Shown here: in pieces, positions 46,717 through 64,000 of the stretch
Position numbering within the stretch: the stretch's first letter is position 1
Layout: every line of letters begins with the position of its first letter
Source: an uncultured Sphingobacteriaceae bacterium
Lineage (GTDB): Bacteria; Bacteroidota; Bacteroidia; Sphingobacteriales; Sphingobacteriaceae
Assembly: GCA_946887045.1 (NCBI GenBank)
Contig: CAMPKC010000003.1
Location: 88,687 to 152,686 of the forward strand
Length of the DNA stretch: 64,000 nt
Reading direction: 5' to 3'
Made by a program: the position numbers and the translations under genes
Notes under the pieces: model-generated
The model's input: only the letters and a program-made list of their open reading frames with translations
Told to the model about the DNA's origin: nothing
Database searches by the model: none

Positions 46717-47289
46717 CTACTCCTCCAGCAACTGCTTAATAAAGCCCTTCGTTTCCTCCGTGTTGTAATCTGCTATACCATTATGCTGGTAAACCATGTC
46801 TCCATTCTTGTTAATTATAATTGTGGTTGGTAAAGTTCCTTGGAAAATATTTTGGGGAATTGTTTCGGCTGGGATAAATGCAGGTAAGGGATAATTATTT
46901 TTTTTAAAGTAATCTTGTGACGCCTTCAGTTCTCCATCCACATTGGCCATTAAGAACAGGAGATCCTTCTCGCCTTTAAAATGTATTGCGAGATTACTTA
47001 TTGAGGGCATTTCAGCAAGACATGGCGGGCACCACTCTGCCCAGAAATTTAAGAAAATCACTTTCCCTTTGCTATTAGCAACATCAATTAGTTCGCCGTT
47101 TACAGATTTGAAAAGTGCGGAGGGAGCCGTACGATCACCTTCGGCTTTTGCCGGAACAAAATCCGGCTCATACAAGCCAGATTTTATAAGTCCCTTAAGG
47201 ATAAAACTTTTTGCCTCAGGATTGAGCGCAATTACTGCCAGCAGCACCATGCTGATGATGAAGCCAATATTCGATTTGATGTATTTCAC
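46717..47289 (-). CDS. TlpA-like membrane-anchored thioredoxin
   Basis: A 190-residue periplasmic thiol reductant with one N-terminal membrane anchor (about residues 8-24) and a TlpA/ResA-type thioredoxin fold. The active site is NFWAEWCPPCLAEMPS (C-P-P-C), and LPTTIIINKNGDMVYQHNGI holds the cis-Pro region. It reduces disulfides or metal-bound cysteines in the periplasm. Its start is next to the stop of the efflux adaptor gene (1 base apart), so it belongs to the efflux operon. A similar protein is encoded at 61843-62454. Confidence 0.92.
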   Translation of the reverse strand: MKYIKSNIGFIISMVLLAVIALNPEAKSFILKGLIKSGLYEPDFVPAKAEGDRTAPSALFKSVNGELIDVANSKGKVIFLNFWAEWCPPCLAEMPSISNLAIHFKGEKDLLFLMANVDGELKASQDYFKKNNYPLPAFIPAETIPQNIFQGTLPTTIIINKNGDMVYQHNGIADYNTEETKGFIKQLLEE

Positions 47290-51300: not shown

Positions 51301-51587
51301 TAAAACGTGAGTTTCATCAGCGTGAAACCCTGTATACTTTTAAAATCGATATCCTTCACACCGCTTACGAATATGAGAAGCTTCTGGAATTCGTTCGCCA
51401 TAAAGCCATCCATGTAAGCCGGGGTCAGTCCTCCGTAGGGCATTGCGATATAAATTGCAGGTGACTCTATTTCCGGGAATATATCGACATTGATTTTTTT
51501 AATCGCTGTAAAGGAAAAGTAGGCGATGGCGAGCACCGCTACCATAATAGTTATGGGTTTTCTCAAAGCAAGTCTTATGATATTCAT
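48381..51587 (-). CDS. RND efflux permease
   Basis: A 1068-residue inner-membrane RND pump with 12 predicted membrane helices and two large periplasmic loops. It begins MNIIRLALRKPITIMVAVLA as usual. The TM4 region has the proton-relay-like stretch MTLSGLALAIGILVDETTVT; a charged D-E pair after GILV is typical. TM10-12 show SYMGIIMSVGVSVSNAVLMV and PMAAGMGDGGEQVAPLGQAV. The sequence is closer to the broad HAE1-like group than to CusA, because I see no methionine-rich metal path. It forms a tripartite system with the adjacent adaptor and TolC-like genes. Confidence 0.94.
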   Translation of the reverse strand: MNIIRLALRKPITIMVAVLAIAYFSFTAIKKINVDIFPEIESPAIYIAMPYGGLTPAYMDGFMANEFQKLLIFVSGVKDIDFKSIQGFTLMKLTFYPGTNMAQSSAELSAQVSRAMALLPPGAIPPQVVRFDASSQPVGQLVFESPKRTITELQTLALTKIRPMFVNIPGVTAPAPFGGNVRTIVVKVDPRQMQSYGLSAEEITAAIAKNSFPSPAGNIRIGDKNLMSPVNTMAKGPEEFLNIPLRTGSGTTVFVRDIGSVEDAADITTGYAIINGKRSVYLPVIKKADASTLTVVDNLKKSIPMLEDALPEDVKVNYVFDQSGYISRALNNLVHEGILGALLTGLMVLLFLGDKRGALIVVLTIPIAILSAVIGLYIVGQTINIMTLSGLALAIGILVDETTVTIENIHQHFEMQKSKDRAILDALLEISIPKLLILLCILAVLVPSFMMTGIPKDMFLPLSLAVAFAMIASFIASQTFVPILANWLMKTDTIKQHKKTDKPKYGRFEKFKRSYLLLTHKAGNKRKTVVFVYAIAVVAMISLGSWAIGTDILPTSNSGDIQLRIAAPQGTRLEKAERYLKEVTLLIRKELPENAVKISSGYVGLQPSSTAINPIFLFTSGSHEAVLQVSIDQELYTGSVEELKDELRKSINKKYPELLLTFEPMEMVQKIMSQGANTPIQIKVAAGPLKIAVNHAGKIASELEKIPFLRDVRVVEPVQYPSVQIDVDRELAAQFGLTMQDVSKALTIATSSTRFTNKNLWVDPKSGLVFQVQVQVPEGDMQSLDNLRSLPLKSGSARPILEDVANIRLTKQPGQVNRQGPNRYVTVQANTYKSDLGAASKAVEQALKSVGEPPRGILVKTEGTLQLLRETLDGLQTGLLVAVVVIFLLLTAYYQSFAVSALILSVVPAVLGGSLLMLLAFGSTLNLQSYMGIIMSVGVSVSNAVLMVNQAELNRKQRGMEASLSAFLAVSSRLRPILMTTLAMIAGMIPMAAGMGDGGEQVAPLGQAVIGGLILSTITSLLVLPHLFVLVRNKASRTSNSLDPDDPERKSLSQEINQLITKKEVYEV

Positions 51588-51593
51588 CTGGTT

Positions 51594-52967
51594 TTATTTG
51601 AAGTGATTTGAGAGATAGCTAAAGTCGCCTGTTAATTCCGATCGGGCAATCAATTGTTCCCAGAATTGTTGGTATGCTTCGATGTTTACCTTCTCGGACT
51701 GCTGAAGAAGAAGCTGGATCTGCAACAGCTCAGTGAGGTTGATCAGGCCATTTTGATAGCGAGATAGATACAGTTCATAAGCTTTTCGGGCCTTGCCAAC
51801 AGCGCTTTTGGTCTTGTCGACCTGTTTTCTGCTTTCGCTTAAGCGGCTACTGACAGATTGAAGACCGGTTTTTAACTGCAGGGTCTGCGCCTCGTATCTG
51901 GATTGAGTAGCTGCCTGTTGTTGTCTAATCCTGTTCCGTTCCGTAATGCTATTGAAAGCATTGCTTATATTCCAGGTCAGGCCGAGACCAATCAGGTAAT
52001 TGCTGCTCTGATTATTAAAGCCGGACGACAAACCTGATTTTACCAAACCATTAGTTCCAATGCCACTACCCCGCGAACTAAGTCCCCCAAGAATCGACAG
52101 ACTCGGAAACCGTTTTCGGGCGGCAACTTCGGCCCTTAGCTTGTCGTTGTCCAGTTGGTCAGAAATAACATTTAAATAAGGGTGACCAGCGGTGGATGTG
52201 TCAGCTAGCGGAAGTAGAGATGCTTTAAGATAATTAGTAAAAGCAAAATCGATACTTTGGGGACTTAGGGGAACAAGCTCTGTTAAACGGATTTTACTTG
52301 CTCCAAGACGACCCGTCCAGTCGTCAAGTTCACCCAAAGTTTGCAAGTATGAAGATCCCGAAAGTAATGTGTCGGCGCCGGGTTTTAAACCCGCTTCAGC
52401 TAATGTTTTAGACAGTTCAAAGATTTCATTTACCCTTTCTGCATTATCTTTTGCCCATTGCCGCTTTGAGCCTGTATAAAGAATTTCCGAATACAGCCGA
52501 CTTACCTTTGCCTTTACGGACAGTTTGGTTGCATCAAAAATACTTTCCGCTTTTTGAATATTCGCTTGTGCTGCTTGTACAGCTTTTCTTTGCCTCCCGA
52601 ATTCAAAAACACGCCAGTCCATCAAAACCGAGCCGAATGTGCTAGAAGCAGTTGTTTGCCCCGGAATAGACGTATTTCCACTTACACTGAACGTTCCCGG
52701 TAAAGGGAAGAATGCGCCTGTACTGCCGGCAAAAGTTCCGTAAGTATTCTGTACCTGCAACTGAACTTTGGGTAGAAAGTCGTTTTGTGTTTCCCTTTTC
52801 AGATATTCTGATTCCCGTATCAGGGCTTGTTTTTCCGTCAAGCCGGGATATTCTGCTAAGGCTGCTTCCCATGCCTCAGAAAGGGATAATTGTCTCTCCT
52901 GAGAGAAAGACTTAAGGTTGAAAAGCAGCATGAAAACTGCCATCAAATAAAGCTTCTGCTTTATCAT
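51594..52967 (-). CDS. TolC-family outer-membrane efflux channel
   Basis: A 457-residue TolC-like protein with signal peptide (about residues 1-22, ending LKSFSQ) and two long coiled-coil repeats. The first is at about 25-230 (LSLSEAWEAALAEYPGLTEK), the second at about 270-450 (LSESRKQVDKTKSAVGKARK, YLSRYQNGLINLTELLQIQL). The Y-x-x-G-x-x-x-L-x-E-L motif is typical of the family. It stands 6 bases before the pump gene, in one operon. It is the outer-membrane exit for the RND pump. Confidence 0.93.
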   Translation of the reverse strand: MIKQKLYLMAVFMLLFNLKSFSQERQLSLSEAWEAALAEYPGLTEKQALIRESEYLKRETQNDFLPKVQLQVQNTYGTFAGSTGAFFPLPGTFSVSGNTSIPGQTTASSTFGSVLMDWRVFEFGRQRKAVQAAQANIQKAESIFDATKLSVKAKVSRLYSEILYTGSKRQWAKDNAERVNEIFELSKTLAEAGLKPGADTLLSGSSYLQTLGELDDWTGRLGASKIRLTELVPLSPQSIDFAFTNYLKASLLPLADTSTAGHPYLNVISDQLDNDKLRAEVAARKRFPSLSILGGLSSRGSGIGTNGLVKSGLSSGFNNQSSNYLIGLGLTWNISNAFNSITERNRIRQQQAATQSRYEAQTLQLKTGLQSVSSRLSESRKQVDKTKSAVGKARKAYELYLSRYQNGLINLTELLQIQLLLQQSEKVNIEAYQQFWEQLIARSELTGDFSYLSNHFK

Positions 52968-53051
52968 ACTTGTAAGATTTTTAAGAAATGAATAGAATGC
53001 AAGCTGCCTATTAAGGCAGGAATGAATAAGCCAGGTCGGCTTAGGGAAAAA

Positions 53052-53498
53052 TCAAATCAGCAGTAATCTATTCTTTATATAGATGGGTGCGCTACTGAAA
53101 GCAAAAGAAGCTTTCGAGAAAGAAATTGAATTGATATTGTGCGATTGGGCGAGCAGAGCACTTCCAACAAATCCAAGCAGGACTGTTAAGAATAGCATCT
53201 GAGGTAATAGTGATCCCAAAGTTTTAGTGCCTTGAAAATCAGCGTTTAGAAACACACCTTGATCACTGACTGAACACAGCAAAGGATTGCCAACTTGTAC
53301 ATTATCAGCTATACGCCTGATCTTCTTGAACCCATTACCCATACCGGACTCTGTACGAACAGAGCCATTAAGAAAAGCTTCGATGCTTTTCCTTACCGTA
53401 CAGTTTGACAGCAGCAGACAAGTAACAAGCAACCCTAAAACGATTGTTTTAAAGCAGCTTGCCTTTTTGATTCTACTGATTATCCTGGGTTTTAACAT
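53052..53498 (-). CDS. small membrane protein, LNGS paralogue family (RND operon)
   Basis: A 148-residue protein I do not recognise. The start at 53498 is chosen because it then aligns with the paralogue at 62573-62974; an in-frame start 45 bases upstream is possible. A lipobox-like hydrophobic stretch (LGLLVTCLLLSNC) is followed by VRKSIEAFLNGSVRTESGMG. In the middle comes a charged linker, then a second hydrophobic segment (LLPQMLFLTVLLGFVGSALL) and a C-terminal PIYIKNRLLLI. The paralogue has the same order: KKAIQVLLNGSAQTEHTGTG and PLYLRNRTFRI. It is the first gene of the RND operon, 84 bases before tolC. Confidence 0.65.
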   Translation of the reverse strand: MLKPRIISRIKKASCFKTIVLGLLVTCLLLSNCTVRKSIEAFLNGSVRTESGMGNGFKKIRRIADNVQVGNPLLCSVSDQGVFLNADFQGTKTLGSLLPQMLFLTVLLGFVGSALLAQSHNINSISFSKASFAFSSAPIYIKNRLLLI

Positions 53499-53543
53499 CG
53501 TGTGCAAAGATAAAGGCTCAAAGGTTAGAACCACAAGTAACAA

Positions 53544-53785
53544 TTAGATTAGGTAAACGCCTAAAAGCCTTTATTTATTACTAATCGGAGCTGGATATAT
53601 TTATAGGATAATGTTTAGCATCAAAAGGATCCCATTAGAGGTCCTTTTGATATTTGATTGGTGATAAATATTGAAGTAATATCGGTCTCGAATATCTGAA
53701 ATCATATGTATCCTTATATTTTTATTATACAGTTGAACAAGCTCGGAAGAGCAATAAAAAAGTAAATCGTCAAAAAGTCGTCCTC
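53544..53785. other. divergent intergenic region
   Basis: About 240 bases between the RND operon and the DUF6132 gene's promoter module. A strong hairpin at 53620-53651 is the only clear feature; it is not explained by either flanking gene. Confidence 0.45.
53620..53651. terminator. hairpin in the divergent region
   Basis: Perfect 10-bp arms ATCAAAAGGA (53620-53629) and TCCTTTTGAT (53642-53651). Both flanking genes are transcribed away from it, so as a terminator it would need an unseen transcript. Confidence 0.45.
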
Positions 53786-53830
53786 GGTGACAAAAGTTAC
53801 CGAATCTCTGTTTTGCCAAAAGTAGCTTTG
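53786..53830 (+). promoter_or_regulatory. Crp/Fnr-like operator and -7 box (site 1)
   Basis: GGTGACAAAAGTTACC (53786-53801) is a near-perfect palindrome, and TAGCTTTG (53823-53830) a perfect TAnnTTTG -7 box. Their centres are 33 nt apart, so the operator centre would lie near -40, the class-II activator position. It precedes the DUF6132 gene at 53850. The same layout recurs at three other sites. Confidence 0.75.
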
Positions 53831-53849
53831 CATTAAAGTTTGAATAGAT

Positions 53850-54062
53850 ATGGGATTTTTAAAAAGAAATATAGGGGTAGTTCCGGGAATTGTATTTGGG
53901 ATGCTGGCGGGCTTTTTATACTGGAACTATGTGGGTTGTGTAAGTGGCACCTGTGCGATTACCTCCAATCCGGTGAACAGTACCTTTTATGGCGCCCTAA
54001 TAGGTGGTTTGCTAGGAAGCATCTTCAAAAAGAAAGACGAAAAAAAAGAAGTGGAAGGTTAA
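53850..54062 (+). CDS. DUF6132-family small membrane protein
   Basis: A 70-residue inner-membrane protein with two hydrophobic helices (about residues 8-28 and 46-60). YVGCVSGTCAITSNPVNSTFY gives the family pattern (two cysteines in G-C-x-S-G-x-C, then ITSNP). This fits DUF6132, a small family of unknown function often near rhodanese genes. It is the only + strand gene of the redox region and has its own Crp/Fnr-like promoter. A terminator overlaps its stop. Confidence 0.88.
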   Translation: MGFLKRNIGVVPGIVFGMLAGFLYWNYVGCVSGTCAITSNPVNSTFYGALIGGLLGSIFKKKDEKKEVEG

Positions 54063-54084
54063 TGTAAACTACCTTCCACTTTAT
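54050..54084 (+). terminator. terminator at the DUF6132 gene end
   Basis: AGTGGAAGGT (54050-54059) pairs perfectly with ACCTTCCACT (54071-54080), followed by T-rich sequence. It starts inside the last codons of the gene, and its other arm can also serve the convergent rhodanese operon. Confidence 0.85.
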
Positions 54085-54170
54085 TTTCCCTTCAGAAGTT
54101 CAAACGGGCCTCATAATGAGAGGTATCATTTCAACTTATAACTGTTAAGTCGCAGTTAGAATCAACAGCC

Positions 54171-54620
54171 TCATTCAACTGGATATCCCTTATTCATCCA
54201 GTCAACCTTAATATTCGTTGGTAGATTGAGAAGTTTTCCATTTCTAAACCCAGCAGCTTGTAGTGCGGTAAACGCCGGACGAATATTCGGACAGCGGTCA
54301 AAAGGACAGCAGCCGCAATAAACAACTACCGTTGATGTTTTTGGAATGGTTGATAAAGCCTTCTTAAACCGACTCAGATTTTCCTTTTCACTAGCACCAC
54401 CCATGTTTTTTGCACCTTTGATATTTTCAACCACACCAATATTGAAAACAATGGGTTTAGTAGCATGTGGATTCTTAATTAAAGCGGCTAATGTTGCCGG
54501 AGCCATCAGTTGACTTTTAGTCCAGGGATCCTTTACTAATTGTGGTTTCGCCGGAAATTGAGCGAAGGATATTGATACGAAGAATATTAGAGTCAGTGTA
54601 CTTAATGTTGTTTTTATCAT
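54171..54620 (-). CDS. exported rhodanese-like protein
   Basis: A 149-residue periplasmic protein with a signal peptide (MIKTTLSTLTLIFFVSISFA) and a rhodanese-like fold (about 25-149). The loop where rhodanese keeps its catalytic cysteine reads VVYCGCCPFDRCPN, with four cysteines in ten residues instead of C-x-x-G-x-R. This could bind metal or relay sulfane sulfur. It is the last gene of the rhodanese/YeeE operon, one base after the second YeeE gene. Confidence 0.85.
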   Translation of the reverse strand: MIKTTLSTLTLIFFVSISFAQFPAKPQLVKDPWTKSQLMAPATLAALIKNPHATKPIVFNIGVVENIKGAKNMGGASEKENLSRFKKALSTIPKTSTVVVYCGCCPFDRCPNIRPAFTALQAAGFRNGKLLNLPTNIKVDWMNKGYPVE

Positions 54621-54621
54621 C

Positions 54622-55035
54622 TTAATGTGGAAGTTTATCTTTGATTATACCATACAAATAAGTGCCAAGAAGTGCACCTATAACGACAATAATCATTGCC
54701 CAGTATCCATAGCCAATATTAACGAACATGGGGCCGGGACATGCTCCCGTTAGGGCCCAGCCAAGTCCGAAGATTGAGCCTCCGATAATATACCGCGGCC
54801 AGCTTTTATCTTTGTCCTGAAATGTAATCGGATTGCCTTGCGTGTCTTTCATCCGGAATTTTTTAATAAGAAACACTGCCAGCACGCCAATTATCACTGC
54901 TGTTCCAATAATTCCGTACATGTGGAACGATTGAAAACGGAACATCTCCTGAATCCGGTACCATGAGATTGCCTCAGACTTGGCCATGATCACGCCGAAA
55001 ACCAGTCCTGTTAAAATATATTTTAATCCCTTCAT
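54622..55035 (-). CDS. YeeE/YedE-type transporter half, second gene
   Basis: A 137-residue membrane protein with four hydrophobic helices. GWALTGACPGPMFVNIGYG carries the conserved cysteine motif of the Sulf_transp (YeeE/YedE) family, thought to pass thiosulfate or related sulfur species through the membrane by transient cysteine contacts. With the first half (55045-55602) it would form the complete two-part transporter seen in many bacteria. The two genes are 9 bases apart. Confidence 0.9.
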   Translation of the reverse strand: MKGLKYILTGLVFGVIMAKSEAISWYRIQEMFRFQSFHMYGIIGTAVIIGVLAVFLIKKFRMKDTQGNPITFQDKDKSWPRYIIGGSIFGLGWALTGACPGPMFVNIGYGYWAMIIVVIGALLGTYLYGIIKDKLPH

Positions 55036-55044
55036 CTTTTCTCC

Positions 55045-55602
55045 TTAAAAAATGATTGGTAATAGTAAATGACTCATTACCAGACCACCTATAAAAAATC
55101 CAATTACTGCTATCAGAGATGGGAGCTGCATATTGGAAAGTCCGCTGATTGCATGACCGGATGTACATCCTCCCGCATACCGGGCTCCGAAGCCCACCAG
55201 CACTCCTCCAATAAGTAATATTAGTATCCCTTTAGGAGACGTAAGAACATCTGCCGCAAAAAGCTGCGATGGGTTTAGTCCGCCGTCGAAGGCTATTCCC
55301 AACCCTTTCAAGTCTTCGACAGTTGCTGCTGATAGCGTAAGCGGATCATCGCTTCGTAGGATAGTTGAGGCAACTACGCCTCCTAACACTGATCCAAATA
55401 AAAAAAGCAGGTTCCATTTTTGCGTTCTCCAGTCGAAGTCGAAGAATTTCACCTTTTTCCCTGCACCTGCGATGGTACACATGGTGCGCAAATTTGCCGA
55501 TACACCGAATGATTTGCCAAAAAAAAGGAGCAATACCATGATGATAGCGATGGCCGGTCCAGATATATACCAGGGCCAGGGCTGTCTAAGTAGTTCAAGC
55601 AT
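55045..55602 (-). CDS. YeeE/YedE-type transporter half, first gene
   Basis: A 185-residue membrane protein with about four to five helices. GFGARYAGGCTSGHAISGLS carries the typical G-C-T-S-G-H motif of the family, whose cysteine is central to thiosulfate transport in YeeE. The start overlaps the end of the Usp gene by 8 bases. Together with the next gene it should import thiosulfate-like sulfur, or export it, between the compartments where the rhodaneses act. Confidence 0.92.
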   Translation of the reverse strand: MLELLRQPWPWYISGPAIAIIMVLLLFFGKSFGVSANLRTMCTIAGAGKKVKFFDFDWRTQKWNLLFLFGSVLGGVVASTILRSDDPLTLSAATVEDLKGLGIAFDGGLNPSQLFAADVLTSPKGILILLIGGVLVGFGARYAGGCTSGHAISGLSNMQLPSLIAVIGFFIGGLVMSHLLLPIIF

Positions 55603-56428
55603 GTTGTTTTTGTAATTGAAATGTTAACAAAGGTTTGATGCAATGATTCACCAAACGCTCGGCAATACTGCCAAATAATAGATGATTAATTCCTTTACGA
55701 CCATTGGTCCTAATACATACCAGGTCCATTTCGGCTTCGCGATTGAAGTTCCTTACCCCATTGGCGACTTTATGATCGCGATAAAGGTGTGTTTCATATT
55801 TTTCAAGCTGATGCTCTTCAGCAAAGAACTTCATCTGAGCTTTAATTTGGTCAGAATGTTTTTCGTCTTCAACCGTCAGAATTTGCAGCAGGTGGATAGT
55901 GCTGTCAAAAGCCCGGGCCAGCTTTTTTATTGATCCAATTTGGACGCCTTTTCCAAAAAGTTCGAAGTCGGCTACCAACAGAATGTTTTTCAGCTCAAGC
56001 ATCGGTGTTCCCGGACGGATTGTAAGCACCGGGATTTGTAGGTGCCGTACCACATGCTGGGCTTCCGAGCCGGATATAAATTCCAGAAAACCTTCAGAGC
56101 CATTTGTTCCCATCACAACTAAATCCGCTTTTAGTTCAAAAGCTGTGTTGTTGATTTGTTCTGTTAATTTTCCTGTGCGCAGGTGTGGCTCGAAGATAAA
56201 TCCCTGAGCTTTCAGAACTTCCATTTTATCCATGGCTGCCTGCTTTCCCTTTTCAAGATCCGAATTTAAAAGGCCTTCCTGAAAGTCGGAGTCCGCGTCG
56301 TTTACCTGTAGCACATGAAGCAGATGAATTTCGATATTCAACTTTCGTGATAATATACTTGACATATCCAATGCCAGAAAAGTCAAGTTTGAGAAGTCGG
56401 TTGGAATCAGAATCGTTAAACTTTCCAT
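55595..56428 (-). CDS. tandem universal stress protein
   Basis: A 277-residue cytoplasmic protein with two Usp domains (about residues 1-145 and 150-277). The first shows LTILIPTDFSNLTFLALDMS and LVVMGTNGSEGFLEFISGSE, the second ILLVADFELF and LVCIRTNGRKGINHLLFGSI. Only part of the ATP loop (G-x2-G-x9-G-S) is kept. The exact role is unknown. It lies in the middle of the sulfur operon, as Usp genes often do with anaerobic/Fnr-controlled genes. Confidence 0.9.
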   Translation of the reverse strand: MESLTILIPTDFSNLTFLALDMSSILSRKLNIEIHLLHVLQVNDADSDFQEGLLNSDLEKGKQAAMDKMEVLKAQGFIFEPHLRTGKLTEQINNTAFELKADLVVMGTNGSEGFLEFISGSEAQHVVRHLQIPVLTIRPGTPMLELKNILLVADFELFGKGVQIGSIKKLARAFDSTIHLLQILTVEDEKHSDQIKAQMKFFAEEHQLEKYETHLYRDHKVANGVRNFNREAEMDLVCIRTNGRKGINHLLFGSIAERLVNHCIKPLLTFQLQKQHA

Positions 56429-56439
56429 CTTATTTTAAA

Positions 56440-56763
56440 TTATGAAACTGGCCATGATGCAACACCGCCAACTAAATTGTATGATTTCAATCCTAGTTTT
56501 TCGAACAGGGATGCTGCGCTTCCACTTCTATTACCGCTACGGCAAAACAGGAAATATGTTTTCTGGCTATCCAGTTTCTGAACCTTCGACTGAAAATCAG
56601 CAGACATCAAATCCATATTTTTAGCTCCCTTAATCGTACCAGACGCAAATTCTGCGGAGGTTCGCACATTAATAAGTTCTGCATTATCTGTTTCTTCAAA
56701 CTTCTGTCTGAAAGTTTTACCGTCTAAATCGTTTTCCTTCTTTGAAAAAAAGCTACCGAACAT
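56440..56763 (-). CDS. single-domain rhodanese
   Basis: A 107-residue cytoplasmic rhodanese. The domain covers almost the whole protein: ELINVRTSAEFASGTIKGAK, then NMDLM, and the active loop YFLFCRSGNRSGSAASLFEK with the catalytic cysteine followed by R-S-G-N-R-S. It would carry sulfane sulfur as a cysteine persulfide. It follows the MBL-rhodanese gene by 43 bases in the same operon. Confidence 0.94.
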   Translation of the reverse strand: MFGSFFSKKENDLDGKTFRQKFEETDNAELINVRTSAEFASGTIKGAKNMDLMSADFQSKVQKLDSQKTYFLFCRSGNRSGSAASLFEKLGLKSYNLVGGVASWPVS

Positions 56764-56806
56764 GACTTATATATTTAATTGTTTACGACTGAATTATTAT
56801 TGCAGG

Positions 56807-58225
56807 CTACGCCATAGTGCTTGCACATACAAACGGGCTTACCTCGAATTTCCCAGATTCTTTCAGTGCTTTGAACCCGCCTTTGATGTCGATAAGGTTA
56901 TCATATCCTCTCGCTCTCAATATGGAGTTGAAAATCATGGAGCGATAACCACCTGCACAGTGCACATAATATGGCTTGTTTTTATCAACTTGGGGCATTG
57001 CCTCATTGATGTAGTCCAGGGCAGCGTTCTCTGAATTGATTAGATGCTCTGAATAATACTCTGTGTTTTTCCGTACATCCAAAATATTCGCGTCCTCCCC
57101 TTTTGCTACTCTTTCTGCCAGCTCATCAGGAGTAATTGACTCAATATGATCTACCTCTTTACCTGCAGCTTTCCATGCATCAATTCCGCCTTTTAGATAT
57201 CCAATAGCATTGTCATAGCCGACTCTTGCTAAGCGGGTTACCACTTCTTCTTCACGCCCTTCATCCATAATGATGAGTAACTCCTGTTTGATGTCTGGTA
57301 TTAAAGTTCCTACCCATGGAGCAAAACTTCCATCGATACCGATATTGATTGAGTTCGGCACAAATCCCTGAGCGAAAGTCTGAGGGTCGCGGGTATCAAG
57401 AAGCAAAGCTCCGGTTTCGTTGGCTGCAGCCTCAAAAGCATCGGGATCTAAAGCCTGTGTTCCTTTTTTCAATACGGACTCAAAGCTTTCGTATCCTTCC
57501 TTATTCAGTTTTACATTTAAAGGAAAGTATGCCGGCGGAGGAGTAAGACCATGAGTCACTTCTTTTATAAATTCCTCCCGCGTTATATTCGCCCTTAAAG
57601 CATAATTCGTTTTCTTCTGATTACCGAGCGTATCGGTGGTCTCTTTGCTCATATTCTTGCCACAGGCTGAACCGGCTCCGTGAGCCGGATAAACGATAAT
57701 GTCATCACTTAAAGGCATGATTTTGGTCCTTAAGGAATCGAAAAGTGTTCCAGCAAGCTGCTCCTGAGTCATGTCGGCTGCTTTTTGAGCAAGATCTGGT
57801 CGCCCAACATCGCCGATAAACAGCGTATCTCCTGAAAATAAGGCGGTCTCTTTTCCCTGCTCGTCTACTAGCAGATAAGAAGTTGACTCCATGGTGTGAC
57901 CGGGGGTATGAAGCACCTTAATGGTCAAATCGCCAATTCTAAATTCTTCATTATCTTTTGCAATGTAAGCGTCGAAGCTTGGATTGGCATTTGGTCCGTA
58001 GATAATAGGAGCGCCTGTTTGTTTAGAAAGATCAACGTGCCCTGAAACAAAATCAGCATGAAAATGCGTTTCGAAAACATACTTGATCGTTGCCTCGTTT
58101 GCTTCGGCTTTTTCTATATAGGGGCTAACTTCGCGTAACGGATCTATAATCGCAGCTTCGTTTCCCGATTGGATATAATAAGCACCCTGTGCTAAACATC
58201 CGGTGTAAATCTGTTCGAGGATCAT
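56807..58225 (-). CDS. MBL-fold persulfide dioxygenase-like protein with two rhodanese domains
   Basis: A 472-residue protein. The metallo-beta-lactamase domain (about residues 1-240) has the iron/zinc motif HFHADFVSGH, then HTPGHT and SGDTLFIGDVGRPDL, as in ETHE1/BlrP-like persulfide dioxygenases. Two rhodanese domains follow (about 270-360 and 370-465). The first has MDEGREEEV where the cysteine should be, so it is inactive. The second has YYVHCAGGYRSM and is probably active. It should oxidise glutathione persulfide-like species to sulfite, matched by the TauE-like exporter next door. First gene of its operon, with a Crp/Fnr-like promoter. Confidence 0.93.
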   Translation of the reverse strand: MILEQIYTGCLAQGAYYIQSGNEAAIIDPLREVSPYIEKAEANEATIKYVFETHFHADFVSGHVDLSKQTGAPIIYGPNANPSFDAYIAKDNEEFRIGDLTIKVLHTPGHTMESTSYLLVDEQGKETALFSGDTLFIGDVGRPDLAQKAADMTQEQLAGTLFDSLRTKIMPLSDDIIVYPAHGAGSACGKNMSKETTDTLGNQKKTNYALRANITREEFIKEVTHGLTPPPAYFPLNVKLNKEGYESFESVLKKGTQALDPDAFEAAANETGALLLDTRDPQTFAQGFVPNSINIGIDGSFAPWVGTLIPDIKQELLIIMDEGREEEVVTRLARVGYDNAIGYLKGGIDAWKAAGKEVDHIESITPDELAERVAKGEDANILDVRKNTEYYSEHLINSENAALDYINEAMPQVDKNKPYYVHCAGGYRSMIFNSILRARGYDNLIDIKGGFKALKESGKFEVSPFVCASTMA

Positions 58226-58258
58226 ATTTTATTATTGTTTAGTTTTATTTTGATTGTA

Positions 58259-58303
58259 CAAATTTCGGTATCTCTTTAAGCGGGATCGGTGACTTTTGTT
58301 ACA
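58259..58303 (-). promoter_or_regulatory. Crp/Fnr-like operator and -7 box (site 2)
   Basis: The operator TGTAACAAAAGTCACC (- strand, 58303-58288) lies upstream of GAAATTTG (58266-58259), a one-mismatch TAnnTTTG box. The centres are again 33 nt apart. It precedes the MBL-rhodanese operon, which starts at 58225. Confidence 0.72.
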
Positions 58304-58310
58304 CAAGAAA

Positions 58311-59105
58311 CTAACCACTTATTTCTCTGAAAATGATGTAAATACCCATTGCCAGCACGAACCATCCAAAGCCTTTTTTAAGCTTTTCGCCTGGGATTTT
58401 CTTGCTCAAAAAACCGCCAACGAATATCCCGGCCATGGCAATTGCAGTAATGGTGAGAAGAAATTTCCAGTCGATATTGAAGTGTCCGACGTCACCTGCG
58501 AATCCGAACAGAGAATTCATGGCTATAATAGCTAGTGATGTTCCAACCGCCTTTTTCATTGGTAGCTTGATTAAGAACACCAGGGCGGGAATTAAAAGAA
58601 AGCCGCCACCTGCACCGAGCAGACCCGTGACCAATCCGATGCTAATACCATAGCCAAGTAACTTGAAAAATTTAATGCAGTCTGAACATTCCTTTTCAGG
58701 TCCGGCACCTGATTTATCCCTAATCATACTAATAGACGCTACCAGCATTAGTAATCCGAAAAGTACCATGGTGAGGAACGACTCTGTAATTGTAAACCCT
58801 CCGACAGTAATTATTTCCTTCGGGATAATGGGCACAAGAAATTTCCGTGTTGCAAATACAGTGATAACCGAAGCTGCACCGAAAAACGCAAGCGCTTTCA
58901 AATTCACAAGGTCCTTACGAAAATTGTCAAAAGAGCCAATAAGACTGGTCGAACCAACGATAAAAAGGGAATAAGATGTTGCTAACAAAGGCTGTACCCC
59001 AAACAGATACACCATCACTGGCACGGTAAGAATAGAACCCCCGCCGCCAATAAGACCCAGAGAAATTCCAATTAAAGCCGACGCAATATATCCTAGTAGT
59101 TCCAT
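58311..59105 (-). CDS. TauE/SafE-family sulfite exporter-like protein
   Basis: A 264-residue membrane protein with about seven to eight helices in two similar halves, each opening with a glycine-rich stretch (GISLGLIGGGGSILTVPVMV and GLVTGLLGAGGGFLLIPALV), the family hallmark. TauE/SafE proteins export sulfite or sulfoacetate or move other sulfur anions. It lies directly upstream of the MBL-rhodanese operon but has its own Crp/Fnr-like promoter, so it is likely co-regulated with it. Confidence 0.93.
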   Translation of the reverse strand: MELLGYIASALIGISLGLIGGGGSILTVPVMVYLFGVQPLLATSYSLFIVGSTSLIGSFDNFRKDLVNLKALAFFGAASVITVFATRKFLVPIIPKEIITVGGFTITESFLTMVLFGLLMLVASISMIRDKSGAGPEKECSDCIKFFKLLGYGISIGLVTGLLGAGGGFLLIPALVFLIKLPMKKAVGTSLAIIAMNSLFGFAGDVGHFNIDWKFLLTITAIAMAGIFVGGFLSKKIPGEKLKKGFGWFVLAMGIYIIFREISG

Positions 59106-59124
59106 TGTTTTGTTTTAATACTAC

Positions 59125-59169
59125 AAAGGTCATGCTTAGAATTTCGGGAGTTTGTGACAAAAGTCACTG
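59125..59169 (-). promoter_or_regulatory. Crp/Fnr-like operator and -7 box (site 3)
   Basis: TGTGACAAAAGTCACT (59154-59169) is a near-perfect palindrome. On the - strand GACCTTTG (59132-59125) is a one-mismatch TAnnTTTG box. The centres are 33 nt apart. It precedes the TauE-like gene that starts at 59105. Confidence 0.75.
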
Positions 59170-59178
59170 GTAGGCTAA

Positions 59179-59634
59179 CTACAGGAAAGGGAAGAATCGG
59201 TAGCTCCGTTTTTGATATTGTTTATATTCAGGAAACTTTTCCACCAGAAGCTTCTCTTCGTACCTTGACTTACAATAGAACAGAACCAGCAAAAGAAAAG
59301 CAATAAAGAGCTTGAACAAACTTTGCTCCCCGATAGCATATGCAAAGAAAAACAGAAACATTCCAGTATAGACAGGGTGCCGTATGTTCTTATACAAACC
59401 GGATTGAATAAGTGTTCCCTGCGATACGGGAGTAGGGAAAGGGCTTAAATTTCTCCGTAGCTGAAAAATGGAGATTGCTGCAACGAATAAGCCAATGATT
59501 GCTACCGCAAAGAAAGATACTCTAATCCAGGAAGCAAGGTACCATCCTTGGTTGGACGGCACCAGAAAAAATAAAATAAAAAGCAAAACCTGAAGACCGA
59601 CGAACAGTATATCTTTTGACTTTAATCGTTTCAT
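59179..59634 (-). CDS. isoprenylcysteine/phospholipid methyltransferase-like membrane protein
   Basis: A 151-residue membrane protein with about four to five helices. The C-terminal half has NIRHPVYTGMFLFFFAYAIG and YEEKLLVEKFPEYKQYQKRS, typical of the ICMT/PEMT-like methyltransferase group (S-adenosylmethionine-binding at the membrane face). The target is unknown. Its start overlaps the end of the dsbD-like gene by 4 bases, so it is the last gene of the Dsb operon. Confidence 0.82.
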   Translation of the reverse strand: MKRLKSKDILFVGLQVLLFILFFLVPSNQGWYLASWIRVSFFAVAIIGLFVAAISIFQLRRNLSPFPTPVSQGTLIQSGLYKNIRHPVYTGMFLFFFAYAIGEQSLFKLFIAFLLLVLFYCKSRYEEKLLVEKFPEYKQYQKRSYRFFPFL

Positions 59635-61334
59635 TGACCTAAAGTACGAATCCTTTCTTCGAAACGAGTTTTCCCTTCATCGAGGAAATCAGCAAATGAC
59701 TCAGGATCGTAATCGGCCCCCCGAGGTTCGTTGAGCATACCGCTATCATGGTCAAGCAGGACATAATAAGGCTGAGAATTCGCATCGAAACGGGCTGCTT
59801 GAAAATCACTCCACTTATTACCAATTGTCTTTATTTTTTTACCACTAAAAGATGAAGTACTTTGCTCATTCGGTGGAAGTTCGGTCTTATCGTCCACGTA
59901 CAGCTGAATCAGCACGTAGTCGTTCTGAAGCCTGCGCAATACCTCCTTCTCGGGCCAGACAGTTGACTCCATTTTTCTGCAATTCACACAAGCATGTCCG
60001 GTAAAATCGATAAGCACAGGCTTGTTTACCTTCTTTGCATAAGCCATACCCTCTTCATAGTCGAAAAAGGCATTCAGATTGAACGGTGCATGAAAAATAT
60101 CTCCGTACTTCTTCGTCGAAGCCTGATCTAACGGTAAACCTTCAGAAGAAATTGAATTAGTATACAGATCGAAATCTTGTGTAGTTTGAGGCGGCAGAAA
60201 TGCCGAAATGGCTTTTAGTGGAGCTCCCCACAAGCCCGGGATCATATAGATCGTAAAAGAAAGGGTCACAATAGCAAGCCCAAGGCGGGGAATGCTGATG
60301 AAAGAGTTATCTGAGTCGTGGGCAAACCTCAGCTTTCCCAGAAGGTAAAATCCCAGGAGGCCGAAAATCACAATCCAGAGAGAAAGAAATACCTCACGAT
60401 CAAACCAATCCCAATGATAAGCCAGATCTACATTTGACAGGAATTTGAGGGCTAAAGCGAGTTCCAAAAAGCCCAGTACCACTTTCACCATATTAAGCCA
60501 TCCACCCGAGCTGGGCAAGGACTTCATCCAGGATGGAAACATCGAAAAGAGCACAAAAGGGATGGCTAATGCCACTGCAAATCCGAACATTCCTGTGGCG
60601 GGTGCTAACAAGGTTCCGGTAGAAGCAGCCTCCACCAGCAGCGTACCAATGATAGGTCCGGTACAGGAGAAAGATACCAAGGCAAGTGTGGCTGCCATGA
60701 AAAAGATTCCCAGCCATCCGCCTTTCTCACTTTTAGCATCCATTTTATTTACCCATGATGCTGGAAGGGTAATTTCAAATGCTCCAAGGAAGGAGGCCGC
60801 GAACACCAGTAGCAACAGGAAGAATGCGAAGTTAAAAATCCCGTTTGTCGATAGAGCATTAAGTGCGTCAGCACCGAAAAGCACCGTTACCAGTAAACCC
60901 AATACCACGTAAATCGCCACAATAGAAATGCCGTATAATAGCGATCGGCCGATCGCTCTCCCTTTGTTATCAGCTGATTTCGTAAAATAGCTGATTGTTA
61001 AAGGCAGCATTGGAAATATACAGGGCATCAAAAAAGCCGCGAAGCCACCAAGTAAGCCAGCCAGAAAGATGGACCATAGAGAACCCGCCGTTTCTTTAAC
61101 TTTCGGAATACTCGCTGGCCGATCGGAAGTATTCAGTTTGGGCTCTCCCGTATCCGACGGGATTTCAGTAAACTCTAATTCTTCTGTTTCGACGCTGCCC
61201 CCTGTCTGCTCAATGGGAGTAAACTGAAGATTTTCGATATCTGCCGATGTAAGCTGAGCAGTATCATCCTGCGAAAAGACTAGCGTTGCATTGGTAAGAA
61301 GTGTTAGTATAACGAGATAGATCAGTCTGATCAT
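59631..61334 (-). CDS. DsbD-like thiol transporter (CcdA-like plus thioredoxin domain)
   Basis: A 567-residue membrane protein that moves electrons from the cytoplasm to periplasmic thiols. The start at 61334 gives the signal MIRLIYLVILTLLTNATLVF; an earlier start lies inside the preceding gene. After a polar stretch (about 23-80) come eight or more helices with redox cysteines in FLMPCIFPMLPLTISYF and SFSCTGPIIGTLL. A C-terminal thioredoxin domain (about 435-567) has the C-V-N-C site in FTGHACVNCRKME. The N-terminal substrate-facing nDsbD domain is missing and is encoded separately just upstream (61363-61809). It should reduce the TlpA-like proteins nearby. Confidence 0.93.
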   Translation of the reverse strand: MIRLIYLVILTLLTNATLVFSQDDTAQLTSADIENLQFTPIEQTGGSVETEELEFTEIPSDTGEPKLNTSDRPASIPKVKETAGSLWSIFLAGLLGGFAAFLMPCIFPMLPLTISYFTKSADNKGRAIGRSLLYGISIVAIYVVLGLLVTVLFGADALNALSTNGIFNFAFFLLLLVFAASFLGAFEITLPASWVNKMDAKSEKGGWLGIFFMAATLALVSFSCTGPIIGTLLVEAASTGTLLAPATGMFGFAVALAIPFVLFSMFPSWMKSLPSSGGWLNMVKVVLGFLELALALKFLSNVDLAYHWDWFDREVFLSLWIVIFGLLGFYLLGKLRFAHDSDNSFISIPRLGLAIVTLSFTIYMIPGLWGAPLKAISAFLPPQTTQDFDLYTNSISSEGLPLDQASTKKYGDIFHAPFNLNAFFDYEEGMAYAKKVNKPVLIDFTGHACVNCRKMESTVWPEKEVLRRLQNDYVLIQLYVDDKTELPPNEQSTSSFSGKKIKTIGNKWSDFQAARFDANSQPYYVLLDHDSGMLNEPRGADYDPESFADFLDEGKTRFEERIRTLGQ

Positions 61335-61362
61335 CTGAGATTCTTTTAGTGAATTAAATAGT

Positions 61363-61809
61363 CTATTTAATTGTAAGGCTAAAATCGACCTCTTCAGGAG
61401 GAAGGCATCTAGAATTGTCGCAGACCATATACTCAATTTTGCCCTTAACTACTGTCGGTAGCTTGGAGAGGCTCACTTTCTGCTGAAAGATGACGGTATT
61501 TGAAAAGTAACTAACTTCCATATCGAAAACCTTTTCAAAAGCGGTAATTGGCTTTGGTTCCATCGTAGCCCCCAGCTTCTTATAAGAAGAAGAGGGAGTA
61601 AAACTGAAACTTGTCTTAACCGGACCACCTTCCCCAACTCTCTGTGAGTAAATATGCCAGCCTTTGTCGATTGTTGCTTTCAAGTAAATAATGGCTTCGT
61701 TTTTTGCGGTTTTCTTTGTGGCATACGACCACTTTACCGGTTTCAAGATCTGGGAATATGATGTAGCACTGAATAACAGTGCTACTATCATGAAAAGGAT
61801 GTATTTCAT
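61363..61809 (-). CDS. stand-alone nDsbD-like domain protein
   Basis: A 148-residue exported protein with signal peptide MKYILFMIVALLFSATSYSQ. It folds like the N-terminal domain of DsbD, with GWHIYSQRVGEGGPVKTSFS near the middle and MVCDNSRCLPPEEVDFSLTI at the end. The two cysteines of the C-x5-C pair are those that take electrons from the thioredoxin domain in full-length DsbD. It lies 28 bases before the dsbD-like gene, which lacks this domain. So the DsbD function is split into two genes. Confidence 0.9.
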   Translation of the reverse strand: MKYILFMIVALLFSATSYSQILKPVKWSYATKKTAKNEAIIYLKATIDKGWHIYSQRVGEGGPVKTSFSFTPSSSYKKLGATMEPKPITAFEKVFDMEVSYFSNTVIFQQKVSLSKLPTVVKGKIEYMVCDNSRCLPPEEVDFSLTIK

Positions 61810-61842
61810 CTTAATGATATTTGTATCCGATGTTGGGACCAG

Positions 61843-62454
61843 TTATTTGCTTGTTAAATCTTTAAAAAACTTCACAAGTTCCGGGTTCATGTAGTCGGCG
61901 CCACCTTCATGCCGGCCAACTACTTTGCCTTCTTTGTCAATTATTACTGTTGTCGGAATGGAGCCAGACAAGAACTCTTGAGGAACCGAGCTAACTGCGG
62001 TATATACAGGCAGGTCATATTTGTTCTTTTCCATAAACTTGCTCGATTTCTTATAGTTATCATCTACATCCACCATGAGGAACAGTATGTCTTTTTCATT
62101 TAGCTGCTTCTTGAGCGTATTGATAGATGGCATCTCCTGAATGCATGGAGGACACCAGGTAGCCCAGAAGTTGATAAAGAGCACCTTTCCCTTTTGTTTG
62201 GAAATATCAATCGTTCTTCCGCTGCCGTCTTTGAATACGACCGAGGGTGCCGTTGGGAACTCTGTAGCTGTGCTGGCCTCTGCATTGTTAACGGATTGAG
62301 CGGAAACTGCCGATTGTTTATTCGATTCGTTTATGTTGTTTTTTGCGTTGCCAAATAATAGTGCCTTTGCATCCGGGCTTATTAGTAAGATTCCCGCAAT
62401 GAGAAGAATAATAGCAGAAATGATTCCTGCTTTAGAAAAGATTTTAGATTTCAT
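61843..62454 (-). CDS. TlpA-like thioredoxin, second copy
   Basis: A 203-residue membrane-anchored periplasmic thioredoxin. Anchor about residues 10-26 (GIISAIILLIAGILLI), polar linker about 35-70, then the TlpA fold with INFWATWCPPCIQEMPS (C-P-P-C) and SIPTTVIIDKEGKVVGRHEG. It is similar in plan to the copy in the RND operon (46717-47289), so the two operons carry paralogous thiol proteins. It is probably a partner of the split DsbD encoded just downstream. Confidence 0.92.
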   Translation of the reverse strand: MKSKIFSKAGIISAIILLIAGILLISPDAKALLFGNAKNNINESNKQSAVSAQSVNNAEASTATEFPTAPSVVFKDGSGRTIDISKQKGKVLFINFWATWCPPCIQEMPSINTLKKQLNEKDILFLMVDVDDNYKKSSKFMEKNKYDLPVYTAVSSVPQEFLSGSIPTTVIIDKEGKVVGRHEGGADYMNPELVKFFKDLTSK

Positions 62455-62572
62455 GTTGAATAATTTAATTGGCTCTACGGAGCCGTAAAATAAAGAGTAA
62501 TTGCCGCCGAACCAGATTTAGTGCAGCCGTTGAAACCTGGACAGGCTTCAGAAATGGAAGTTTGTTAGAATA

Positions 62573-62974
62573 TCAAATCCGGAATGTCCTGTTCCTGAGG
62601 TATAGAGGAACAGGATAAATGGCTAAGAAGCCCGATTGTCTAAAAGAAAGGCTTTTAGACCCTGATCTCGATACAGACCAGATTGCCCAAAAGGCGGTAA
62701 AAAGTATACCAATTAATAGAGGAGCATTCGTCTCGGCCGGACGCTCTGGTAAAGACATTTTTTTACTGAAACTACTTTCTCCGCCTACACATAAAAGGGA
62801 AGCCAAACTCTTGCCATGTCCTGTTCCAGTGTGTTCAGTTTGAGCAGAGCCGTTAAGTAAAACCTGAATTGCCTTTTTCAGAGGACAAGAACCCAGCACA
62901 AGGAAACTTGCTATCAGTACGAATACTGACAAGAAGCGAAAGTGTCCGGAAATGTCTTTGAGCCTAGGAATCAT
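62573..62974 (-). CDS. small membrane protein, LNGS paralogue family (Dsb operon)
   Basis: A 133-residue protein of the same unrecognised family as 53052-53498. An N-terminal hydrophobic segment ends in a lipobox-like V-L-G-S-C, followed by PLKKAIQVLLNGSAQTEHTG. After a polar loop comes a second hydrophobic segment (LLIGILFTAFWAIWSV) and the C-terminal VPLYLRNRTFRI. The shared motif is K-[AS]-I-x3-LNGS-x2-TE. It lies between trx-like and tlpA-like genes. A role in redox or metal handling is suggested by context only. Confidence 0.65.
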   Translation of the reverse strand: MIPRLKDISGHFRFLSVFVLIASFLVLGSCPLKKAIQVLLNGSAQTEHTGTGHGKSLASLLCVGGESSFSKKMSLPERPAETNAPLLIGILFTAFWAIWSVSRSGSKSLSFRQSGFLAIYPVPLYLRNRTFRI

Positions 62975-63027
62975 TGTTTCTTATTAAGGTTGACTACCTT
63001 TTGATTGTTTAACGGGTGAAAAAGTAA

Positions 63028-63324
63028 TTAAGTATGTCTCTCTAATAATGCTTTGAGCTGCGAAGCCTGCATTACTCCGGATTGCCGCCACTTGCTTTCT
63101 CCGTTTTTAAAGATGATTAAAGTCGGAACTCCCTGAACATTATAGGATCGAGCTACCTCCGGGTTTTTATCAACGTCAACCTTCAAGATAGTTGCCTTTT
63201 CGCCAACCATACCCTTCAATTGCTCCAAAATAGGCGCCATCATCTTACACGGACCGCACCACTCTGCCGAGAAGTCGACTAAAACCGGCTTATCAGAATT
63301 TATGATTTCAAAAAAAGTTGCCAT
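63028..63324 (-). CDS. thioredoxin
   Basis: A 98-residue cytoplasmic thioredoxin. [20 protein letters not shown] carries the W-C-G-P-C active site, [20 protein letters not shown] the cis-Pro region, and [11 protein letters not shown] the usual end. It would supply electrons to the DsbD-like protein and to cytoplasmic rhodanese persulfides. It follows the CCGGGAC protein gene by 12 bases in the operon with Crp/Fnr-like site 4. Confidence 0.95.
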
Positions 63325-63336
63325 AGCTGTTTCGTT

Positions 63337-63591
63337 TTATCTGCCCTTAATTTCTTCAAATTCCACATCCATTGTTTTGCTTGAGTTTTGCTTCCTGGAA
63401 CCGGTGTTACATGCACCTCCACCACAGCAAGCAGCATTTGCCAATGCCTGGAAAATAAACAGTCCTGCCAGTATTCCCAGTAATCCGCTTTGCAGTTCGA
63501 AAGCCTGGTATGCAACTATTAGTCCCATTGCCAGTCTTAACCACCTCATAAAATCCCAACCTGTAAATATCGTTTTTCTAAGTGTTTCCAT
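63337..63591 (-). CDS. small membrane protein with CCGGGAC motif
   Basis: An 84-residue protein with two hydrophobic segments (about residues 12-30 and 34-50) followed by A-C-C-G-G-G-A-C, three cysteines in a glycine loop, and a polar tail. It resembles DUF2892/YgaP-like proteins in size and topology, but I do not assign it firmly. The cysteine loop may bind a metal or form disulfides. It is the first gene behind the perfect Crp/Fnr-like palindrome and precedes thioredoxin. Confidence 0.75.
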   Translation of the reverse strand: METLRKTIFTGWDFMRWLRLAMGLIVAYQAFELQSGLLGILAGLFIFQALANAACCGGGACNTGSRKQNSSKTMDVEFEEIKGR

Positions 63592-63611
63592 CTCTATTAC
63601 GTTTTCTTACA

Positions 63612-63656
63612 CAAAGGTCACTAGAATAGAAAGTAATGATTGTGACAATTGTCACA
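63612..63656 (-). promoter_or_regulatory. perfect Crp/Fnr-like palindrome and -7 box (site 4)
   Basis: TGTGACAATTGTCACA (63641-63656) is a perfect 16-bp palindrome, identical to the Crp half-sites TGTGA-N6-TCACA. GACCTTTG (- strand, 63619-63612) is the -7 box. The centres are 33 nt apart. The start of the CCGGGAC gene (63591) is 21 bases downstream of the box. Confidence 0.8.
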
Positions 63657-63689
63657 GAGCAATAAGGGCTTAAGGTACCAACAGCAGAA

Positions 63690-64000
63690 TCACCGAATCC
63701 ATTCGATATAATTACGATGCAATAGCAGATCACCGCGCTGTTCCATTTTCTTTAATAAACGAGAAATTACCTCACGGGACGTACTCAGATCGTTGCAATC
63801 TCCTGGTGGGTGATGTTCAGCTCGCGGGTGTGCAACTTTTCATGCTGTTGTTTGAGATAAAATTCCAGGCGCTGATCCATACTTTTAAAGGCGATGTTAT
63901 CGACCAAAGTAGCAATTCTTCGTACCGATTCATTCTTGCGAGCGGTTGGAATATCATCGTTCAAAAACTACAATTAACACTTTGCAGTGTATAGCCAATC
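63690..64000 (-). pseudogene. Crp/Fnr-family regulator, 3' part with frameshift
   Basis: The C-terminal end of a Crp/Fnr helix-turn-helix regulator runs off the window edge. Upstream frame: FKSMDQRLEFYLKQQHEKLH, then TRELNITHQEIAT, and a TGA at 63787-63785. Downstream frame: DLSTSREVISRLLKKMEQRG, then DLLLHRNYIEWIR and the stop at 63692-63690. The two join into a normal winged helix if one base is restored near 63788-63793. A further in-frame TAG at 63970-63968 blocks the upstream frame. Either the gene is decayed or the sequence has errors. It lies 33 bases from site 4 and is the natural candidate for binding all four sites. Confidence 0.7.

Follow-up and report, generated by a model that had tools for sequence, protein, structure and literature searches.

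A recurrent Crp/Fnr-type promoter element upstream of sulfur oxidation and import genes in Bacteroidota, and a candidate cysteine-bearing regulator

We analysed a 64,000-nt stretch, hereafter the window, from the genome assembly of an uncultured Sphingobacteriaceae bacterium (GCA_946887045.1, contig CAMPKC010000003.1, positions 88,687 to 152,686 of the forward strand). In this window, genes for sulfur transport, persulfide oxidation and thiol redox functions lie behind putative Crp/Fnr-dependent promoters. Indeed, four exact 16-nt operators of the form nGTRACnnnnGTYACn were found, each with a downstream TAnnTTTG-like box (Table 1). At all four sites the TTTG starts at exactly +25 past the 16-mer, so that operator and box centres lie 33 nt apart, the distance given by the original prediction, which had been made from the letters of the window. 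The palindromes were located where that prediction placed them at sites 1, 2 and 4, and one base lower at site 3 (59153-59168 instead of 59154-59169; the spacing refers to this corrected coordinate). The four modules, described as identical, do share a common layout; however, their half-sites differ (GTGAC or GTAAC) and relatives use a spacing of 25 or 26 nt.

Site 1 precedes a gene for a DUF6132-like membrane protein, site 2 a gene run beginning with a metallo-beta-lactamase/rhodanese fusion (PDO), site 3 a TauE/SafE gene, and site 4 a thioredoxin/Dsb run. The first protein of this last run is presumably DUF2892-like. Half-length YeeE-like pairs, such as that of the PDO run, resemble the PmpA/PmpB layout that the passages cited of PMC11582611 describe for the YeeE family.

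Table 1. Operators, promoter boxes and neighbouring genes in the window
Feature	Position	Strand	Score or basis
Operator 1, GGTGACAAAAGTTACC	53786..53801	+	model score 22.1 bits
-7 box of operator 1, TAGCTTTG	53823..53830	+	read from sequence
Operator 2, TGTAACAAAAGTCACC (minus-strand reading)	58288..58303	-	model score 26.3 bits
-7 box of operator 2, GAAATTTG	58259..58266	-	read from sequence
Operator 3, AGTGACTTTTGTCACA (minus-strand reading)	59153..59168	-	model score 26.6 bits
-7 box of operator 3, GACCTTTG	59124..59131	-	read from sequence
Operator 4, TGTGACAATTGTCACA, perfect palindrome	63641..63656	-	model score 25.9 bits
-7 box of operator 4, GACCTTTG	63612..63619	-	read from sequence
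DUF6132-like small membrane protein	53850..54062	+	Pfam 22.1 bits, just under 23.2 cut-off
Metallo-beta-lactamase/rhodanese fusion (PDO), probably persulfide dioxygenase	56807..58225	-	function inferred from family
Rhodanese-like protein, PDO run	56440..56763	-	family by eye
Universal stress protein (Usp)-like, PDO run	55595..56428	-	family from original prediction
Half-length YeeE-like sulfur transporter (Sulf_transp)	55045..55602	-	domain scan
Second half-length YeeE-like sulfur transporter (Sulf_transp, DUF6691)	54622..55035	-	domain scan
PDO-run protein without Pfam match, rhodanese-like by eye	54171..54620	-	Pfam scan and by eye
TauE/SafE exporter	58311..59105	-	domain scan
Presumed DUF2892-like small membrane protein, first of thioredoxin/Dsb run	63337..63591	-	no Pfam or NCBIfam match
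Thioredoxin, WCGPC by eye	63028..63324	-	by eye
TlpA-like redoxin	61843..62454	-	domain scan
DsbD N-terminal-like protein	61363..61809	-	by eye and position
DsbD-like transmembrane electron carrier	59631..61334	-	domain scan
ICMT/PEMT-like methyltransferase, last of thioredoxin/Dsb run	59179..59634	-	domain scan
Crp/Fnr C-terminal end, frame-broken, cut by window end; helix SREVISR	63690..64000	-	two frames, early stop

The composite element was defined as GTRACN4GTYAC with TTTG at +25 or +26. No fifth exact composite was found in the 64-kb window, and 500 dinucleotide shuffles of it contained 0.004 composites on average and one at most, none of them reaching four. A composite with one mismatch at 63397 (+), within the DUF2892-like gene, looks like a chance match. 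The palindrome alone, with up to two mismatches, was not found above chance (8 in the window versus 10.75 expected). A model built from 54 sites returned the same four as its top matches in the window (22-27 bits), which is not an independent test since the window's four sites were among the 54. A scan of 12 genomes with this model (0.59 bits of information per position; 150 first-look candidates scored per genome) was used only for choosing clusters; all 12 gave matches, many with borderline E-values. Operator 1 also scores on the opposite strand (18.7 bits; 53753-53800, -), and may also serve a divergent promoter toward the small gene at 53052-53543.

Two sets of relatives were examined. The first comprised the 80 loci that encode the PDO-rhodanese protein's closest relatives, the best 80 out of at least 580; nearly all are Bacteroidota by name, and the flanks reach up to 10 kb and are often shorter. 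The second comprised stretches from genomes drawn by class, where G001, G011 and G018, already used, were skipped. Counting both directions of each exact palindrome, the first set gave 132 operator readings, 53 of which had TTTG at +25 (38 readings) or +26 (15), with every other offset represented 0-3 times. The second set gave 64 readings, with 21 at +25 and 5 at +26 (26 in total), other offsets occurring 0-2 times. Among the 133 composites found in related loci with up to one mismatch, the spacing was 25 nt in 103 and 26 nt in 30, the second box base was A in 128, matching TAnnTTTG, and the median distance from box to start codon was 24 nt. The predicted absence of a -33 box extended to these relatives, TTTG lying within the expected -33 zone in only 3 of the 133. 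In the passages cited of PMC9723704, the promoter box of Flavobacterium psychrophilum is reported at -12 to -5. With this position and the fixed 33-nt distance, the operator centre would fall at -8.5 - 33 = -41.5 (or at -42.5 with the 26-nt spacing), which supports the class-II geometry originally proposed, with no -35-type element.

Target genes were counted in 109 loci chosen through the PDO gene and not through the motif, accepting composites with up to one mismatch upstream of a gene. Genes in these loci were mechanical choices of open reading frames, with family labels given by BLAST to window or locus proteins, so that OprD and TsdA stand for OprD-like and TsdA-like, the latter being a SoxA/TsdA-type cytochrome. 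The composite was present upstream of 59 of the 112 PDO-rhodanese genes and 29 of the 52 TauE genes, as well as of OprD-like porin (14/32) and TsdA-like cytochrome genes (13/29). It also preceded genes for thioredoxin (6/32), YeeE first halves (6/62), DUF2892 (3/10), small rhodaneses (2/56), Crp (1/38), SoxB-like proteins (1/11; the two scanned reached 240 and 223 bits versus a cut-off of 550) and DUF6132 (1/11). None of the 61 YeeE second halves was preceded by it, nor any of the 13 genes that encoded Usp, TlpA, RND, ICMT or 54171-type proteins. Only 7 of the 1123 other genes had the composite, versus about half of the PDO and TauE genes, so that the element is not equally frequent elsewhere. 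Moreover, 142 genes were found with the real spacing and 1-3 genes with each of six shifted spacings.

Each of the window's four target groups recurred with a site in other loci: PDO and TauE did so in many, DUF6132 in L063, and DUF2892, the first gene of the thioredoxin/Dsb run, in L003 and L037. The regulon had been called compact, but the motif extends far past the window, across Bacteroidota. In Leeuwenhoekiella blandensis, exact sites precede a gene pair ending in a Crp gene, which is possible autoregulation, as well as a TauE gene, a SoxB-/TlpA-/DsbD-like run and two YeeE pairs. In Spirosoma panaciterrae, a 17.5-kb stretch contains five sites, of which two are exact and three have one mismatch; these precede TauE-PDO, a DUF983 gene, a TsdA-like gene, OprD-YeeE-YeeE and a second PDO. 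Bacteroidota commonly encode the PDO-rhodanese protein: 110 of the 149 genomes drawn from one class had a match at E ≤ 1e-100.

A Crp/Fnr gene was found inside the fetched flanks of 34 of the 80 first-set loci, with a Cx5C motif in 33 and Cx6C in one. Its product carries the recognition helix SREVISR, SRVVISR or a close variant, and very probably is the regulator that binds these sites, because one residue of the helix tracks an operator base. In the passages cited of Rodionov and colleagues (PMC1274295), residues 180/181 of the Crp/Fnr family are likewise correlated with operator bases. We counted this association in 52 genomes or loci, window included, that had one helix type, an exact composite and a regulator with the cysteine pair (104 of the 124 regulator rows; L019, with Cx6C, was added by hand, and the 124 rows include a few near-duplicates, which come from stretches that overlap). 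Glu in the helix went with mostly GTGAC in 25 genomes or loci and mostly GTAAC in none (9 ties); Val went with mostly GTAAC in 15 and mostly GTGAC in none (3 ties). Thus, all 40 untied genomes or loci agreed, with no reversals. At the level of half-sites, 93 of 112 were GTGAC with Glu and 48 of 54 were GTAAC with Val. Ties were excluded from the Fisher test on genomes, and genomes without an exact composite add nothing to the covariation. G036, which has both helix types, was set aside and carries both operator types. Six genomes or loci had sites and no regulator in the stretches examined (L048, L059, L060, L067, G091 and G160) and stayed outside the counts, as did G114, G137 and G148, where the regulator lacks the pair (G114 and G137 being ties). 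An earlier tally had also included G023 (one cysteine, Val) and G030 (Cx6C, Val), which the final count did not. Overall, the palindromic operator with GTGA-like half-sites would match the helix, as judged by association. Some genomes have two or more Crp paralogues of the cysteine-bearing family: L117/L118 (G028), L126 (G036) and L113 (G022).

In a Pedobacter relative, whose numbering is used here, the protein shows the Crp/Fnr fold, with a cNMP-like beta-roll, a dimer helix and a C-terminal helix-turn-helix (HTH), and Foldseek and HMMER match it to CRP, NtcA and FNR. Its AlphaFold model (mean predicted local distance difference test, pLDDT, of 91) places Cys82 just before, and Cys88 within, the helix 83-90. 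The first cysteine is present in all 124 rows and the pair in 104, in one of these as Cx6C. Among the 34 first-set proteins, the number of cysteines is exactly two in 24, three in 6 and at least four in 4. In the alignment, the conserved cysteine-bearing stretch stands where CRP has its cAMP cassette, which suggests that the pair, in the cyclic-nucleotide pocket, forms a dithiol sulfur sensor. Residues six apart in a helix are too distant for a direct disulfide without unwinding, so that a sulfur bridge at this place would make a natural switch. In ArsR-type sensors, the bridging of two cysteines by sulfur is established, according to the passages cited of PMC12423496. Regulator rows without the second cysteine (e.g. 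the CIMSFLG type) recur, and these proteins may sense differently. Related proteins number at least 7953; among the best 120, the names given are generic Crp/Fnr labels or "Global nitrogen regulator".

We therefore favour, with a probability of roughly 0.7, the reading that the four sites belong to class-II, activator-dependent promoters of a single sulfur oxidation and import regulon that recurs in Bacteroidota, governed by a cysteine-bearing Crp/Fnr protein and a reactive-sulfur signal. A dimer of this protein, often encoded near its targets, would bind GTRACnnnnGTYAC at -41.5 (or -42.5) and, for sigma-A polymerase, would stand in for the -33 element that these promoters lack. Cys82 and Cys88, at the place where CRP binds cAMP, would probably sense reactive sulfur in the form of persulfide, polysulfide or thiosulfate-derived sulfane sulfur. 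The composite, its conservation, its target genes and the association of helix residue with operator base are observed; activation rather than repression, the sulfur signal and the dithiol chemistry are what this reading would add.

Several observations weigh against this reading. The Crp/Fnr gene adjacent to the thioredoxin/Dsb run, noted in the original prediction, is present as a C-terminal piece with the SREVISR helix, but it is frame-broken and cut off by the window end; the break could reflect a pseudogene or a sequencing fault, and we infer that the organism has a working copy. Moreover, the regulator tree needs 5-6 changes of helix type and yields 5 independent pairs when all branches count but only 3 when branches must be well supported; these 3 all go in the expected direction, yet the sign test gives p = 0.25. 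An earlier tree without the cysteine-pair filter gave 2 pairs, a mean of 1.7 in the same direction and none opposite. No exact composite was seen in the stretches fetched from 26 of the 42 second-set genomes with a Cx5C regulator, and the helix/operator association is far from universal at this stringency. G148 combines Glu with a GTAAC site, its regulator being one of those without the pair. Finally, L. nanhaiensis (G023) keeps the composite although the single Crp match in it carries the first cysteine and not the second, so that the pair would not be strictly needed.

An alternative that we consider unlikely is that the regulon is the same but senses oxygen, NO or redox state through a metal centre (Fe-S or heme), like FNR, DNR and HcpR, sulfur genes being merely its targets. 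The Dsb/thioredoxin genes would fit a redox signal too, and 4 of the 34 regulator relatives have four or more cysteines. However, the other 30 fall below the four cluster-ligand cysteines of FNR, and by sequence 3DV8 is the best match in the PDB, outranking FNR and DNR. As to the original proposal of a probably sulfur- or oxygen-responsive regulon, the targets are sulfur-centred and the oxygen option is weakened by the cysteine counts. An FNR of the oxygen type was rejected as the likeliest regulator on cysteine count, and the Pedobacter relative scores 35.2 bits against NCBIfam FNR (4Fe-4S; cut-off 228). The HcpR proteins, of the same family, speak for this alternative by their operator: in the passages cited of Rodionov and colleagues (PMC1274295), the HcpR2 consensus, Bacteroides ones included, is GTAACnnnnGTTAC, which equals the Val-type operator. 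According to these passages, however, hcp is under HcpR control, and at the position of Glu or Val in the present family HcpR2 mostly carries Pro. No hcp was seen among the annotated targets, which cover fewer than half of the 7 "other" genes and, in the 12-genome model scan, clusters of two genomes.

It is somewhat less probable still that the Crp/Fnr protein is a repressor that leaves the operator once its cysteines are modified. ArsR and CsoR sulfur sensors are repressors of this kind (FisR is an activator of another kind), and the -33 zone is overlapped by the operator. According to the passages cited of PMC9918477, repression is the mode of several known sensors of sulfane sulfur that control sulfur-oxidation genes. 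However, a repressor would tolerate varied positions, and the box spacing is fixed at 25-26 nt with TTTG almost never in the -33 zone, as for an activator-dependent promoter. Very improbable, in our view, is that another Crp/Fnr paralogue binds the sites and that the neighbouring cysteine-bearing protein is coincidental. The genomes hold 2-39 loose first-look Crp/Fnr candidates, and the phylogenetic support for covariation is thin; against this stand the frequent Crp/Fnr neighbour, the L. blandensis site that precedes the pair with the Crp gene and the unanimous helix/operator agreement. That the four palindromes are alike by chance, which the lack of enrichment of the palindrome alone could suggest, is ruled out by the shuffles and the conservation in other genomes.

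Among known systems, E. coli CRP is like the putative sulfur regulator in its fold, its SRE..xR recognition helix, its TGTGAC-like half-site and its operator centre 41.5 nt upstream. It differs in that its cAMP-contact stretch is the cysteine-bearing stretch here (aC-Alsl aligned with FIgELGL of CRP) and in that the promoters described here have the Bacteroidota -7 box. A cAMP-type CRP was rejected, the Pedobacter relative reaching 40.9 bits against NCBIfam CRP (cut-off 266). The nearest solved relative is 3DV8 (E 3e-33), a Crp/Fnr protein of Eubacterium rectale from structural genomics, which has Cx5C at the same place but belongs to another phylum and has HRE where SRE stands here; this hints that the cysteine-bearing subfamily reaches beyond Bacteroidota. 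Cyanobacterial NtcA, which recognises the half-site GTA and controls nitrogen genes, is also a Crp/Fnr protein. In the PDB alignment it has Val at the specificity position, as in the Val-type helix, but according to PDB titles it binds 2-oxoglutarate.

Control of sulfur-oxidation genes is otherwise described for SqrR/BigR/SoxR/sHdrR (ArsR), CstR/CsoR and FisR, the ArsR-type proteins having two conserved cysteines (passages cited of PMC12423496 and PMC9918477); these sulfane-sulfur sensors belong to families other than Crp/Fnr. The same passages name sulfur regulators of the ArsR, CsoR, FisR, NreBC or OxyR/MarR types, and the part of PMC9918477 that lists CstR, CsoR, SqrR, FisR, OxyR, MexR, MgrA and MarR as sensing sulfane sulfur includes no Crp/Fnr protein. 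Class-II activation by Crp/Fnr proteins is already known. For a Crp/Fnr regulon that covers sulfur oxidation and includes a candidate dithiol sensor, no description was found in the openly accessible literature searched, of which the slash in the family name may have let part escape. Whether the superfamily holds a phylum-wide dithiol sulfane-sulfur sensor, in which Cys-x5-Cys replaces the cyclic-nucleotide cassette and bridging reshapes the helix to turn on class-II promoters of persulfide/thiosulfate oxidation, seems to us evenly poised. If so, Bacteroidota would have in this protein their counterpart of SqrR, CstR and FisR, and its kind may extend to Firmicutes (3DV8). Control of the PDO pathway becomes directly testable with an operator, promoter geometry, target list and candidate sensor cysteines defined, and the association of Glu or Val with GTGAC or GTAAC may allow regulons to be predicted from the regulator sequence.

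Other features were noted around these genes. No close plasmid relative of 53001-64000 was found by megablast against 72,556 plasmids. The sulfur cluster of L. blandensis (L275) adjoins RND/TolC efflux genes like those at 48381-52967 (-) of the window (64 % identity for RND, 31 % for TolC), and a second TlpA-like thioredoxin, recognised by eye, adjoins the efflux genes in the window at 46717-47289 (-). On inspection by eye, the short proteins encoded at 53052-53543 and 62573-62974 (-) have a C-x(3)-K-x(5)-LNGS-like stretch in common; they could be paralogues. Elsewhere in the window, 27039-30839 (-) encodes a 1266-aa protein for which no family was obvious by eye, and a gene pair at 19668-21210 (-) resembles by eye what we take to be the AbiEi/AbiEii type.

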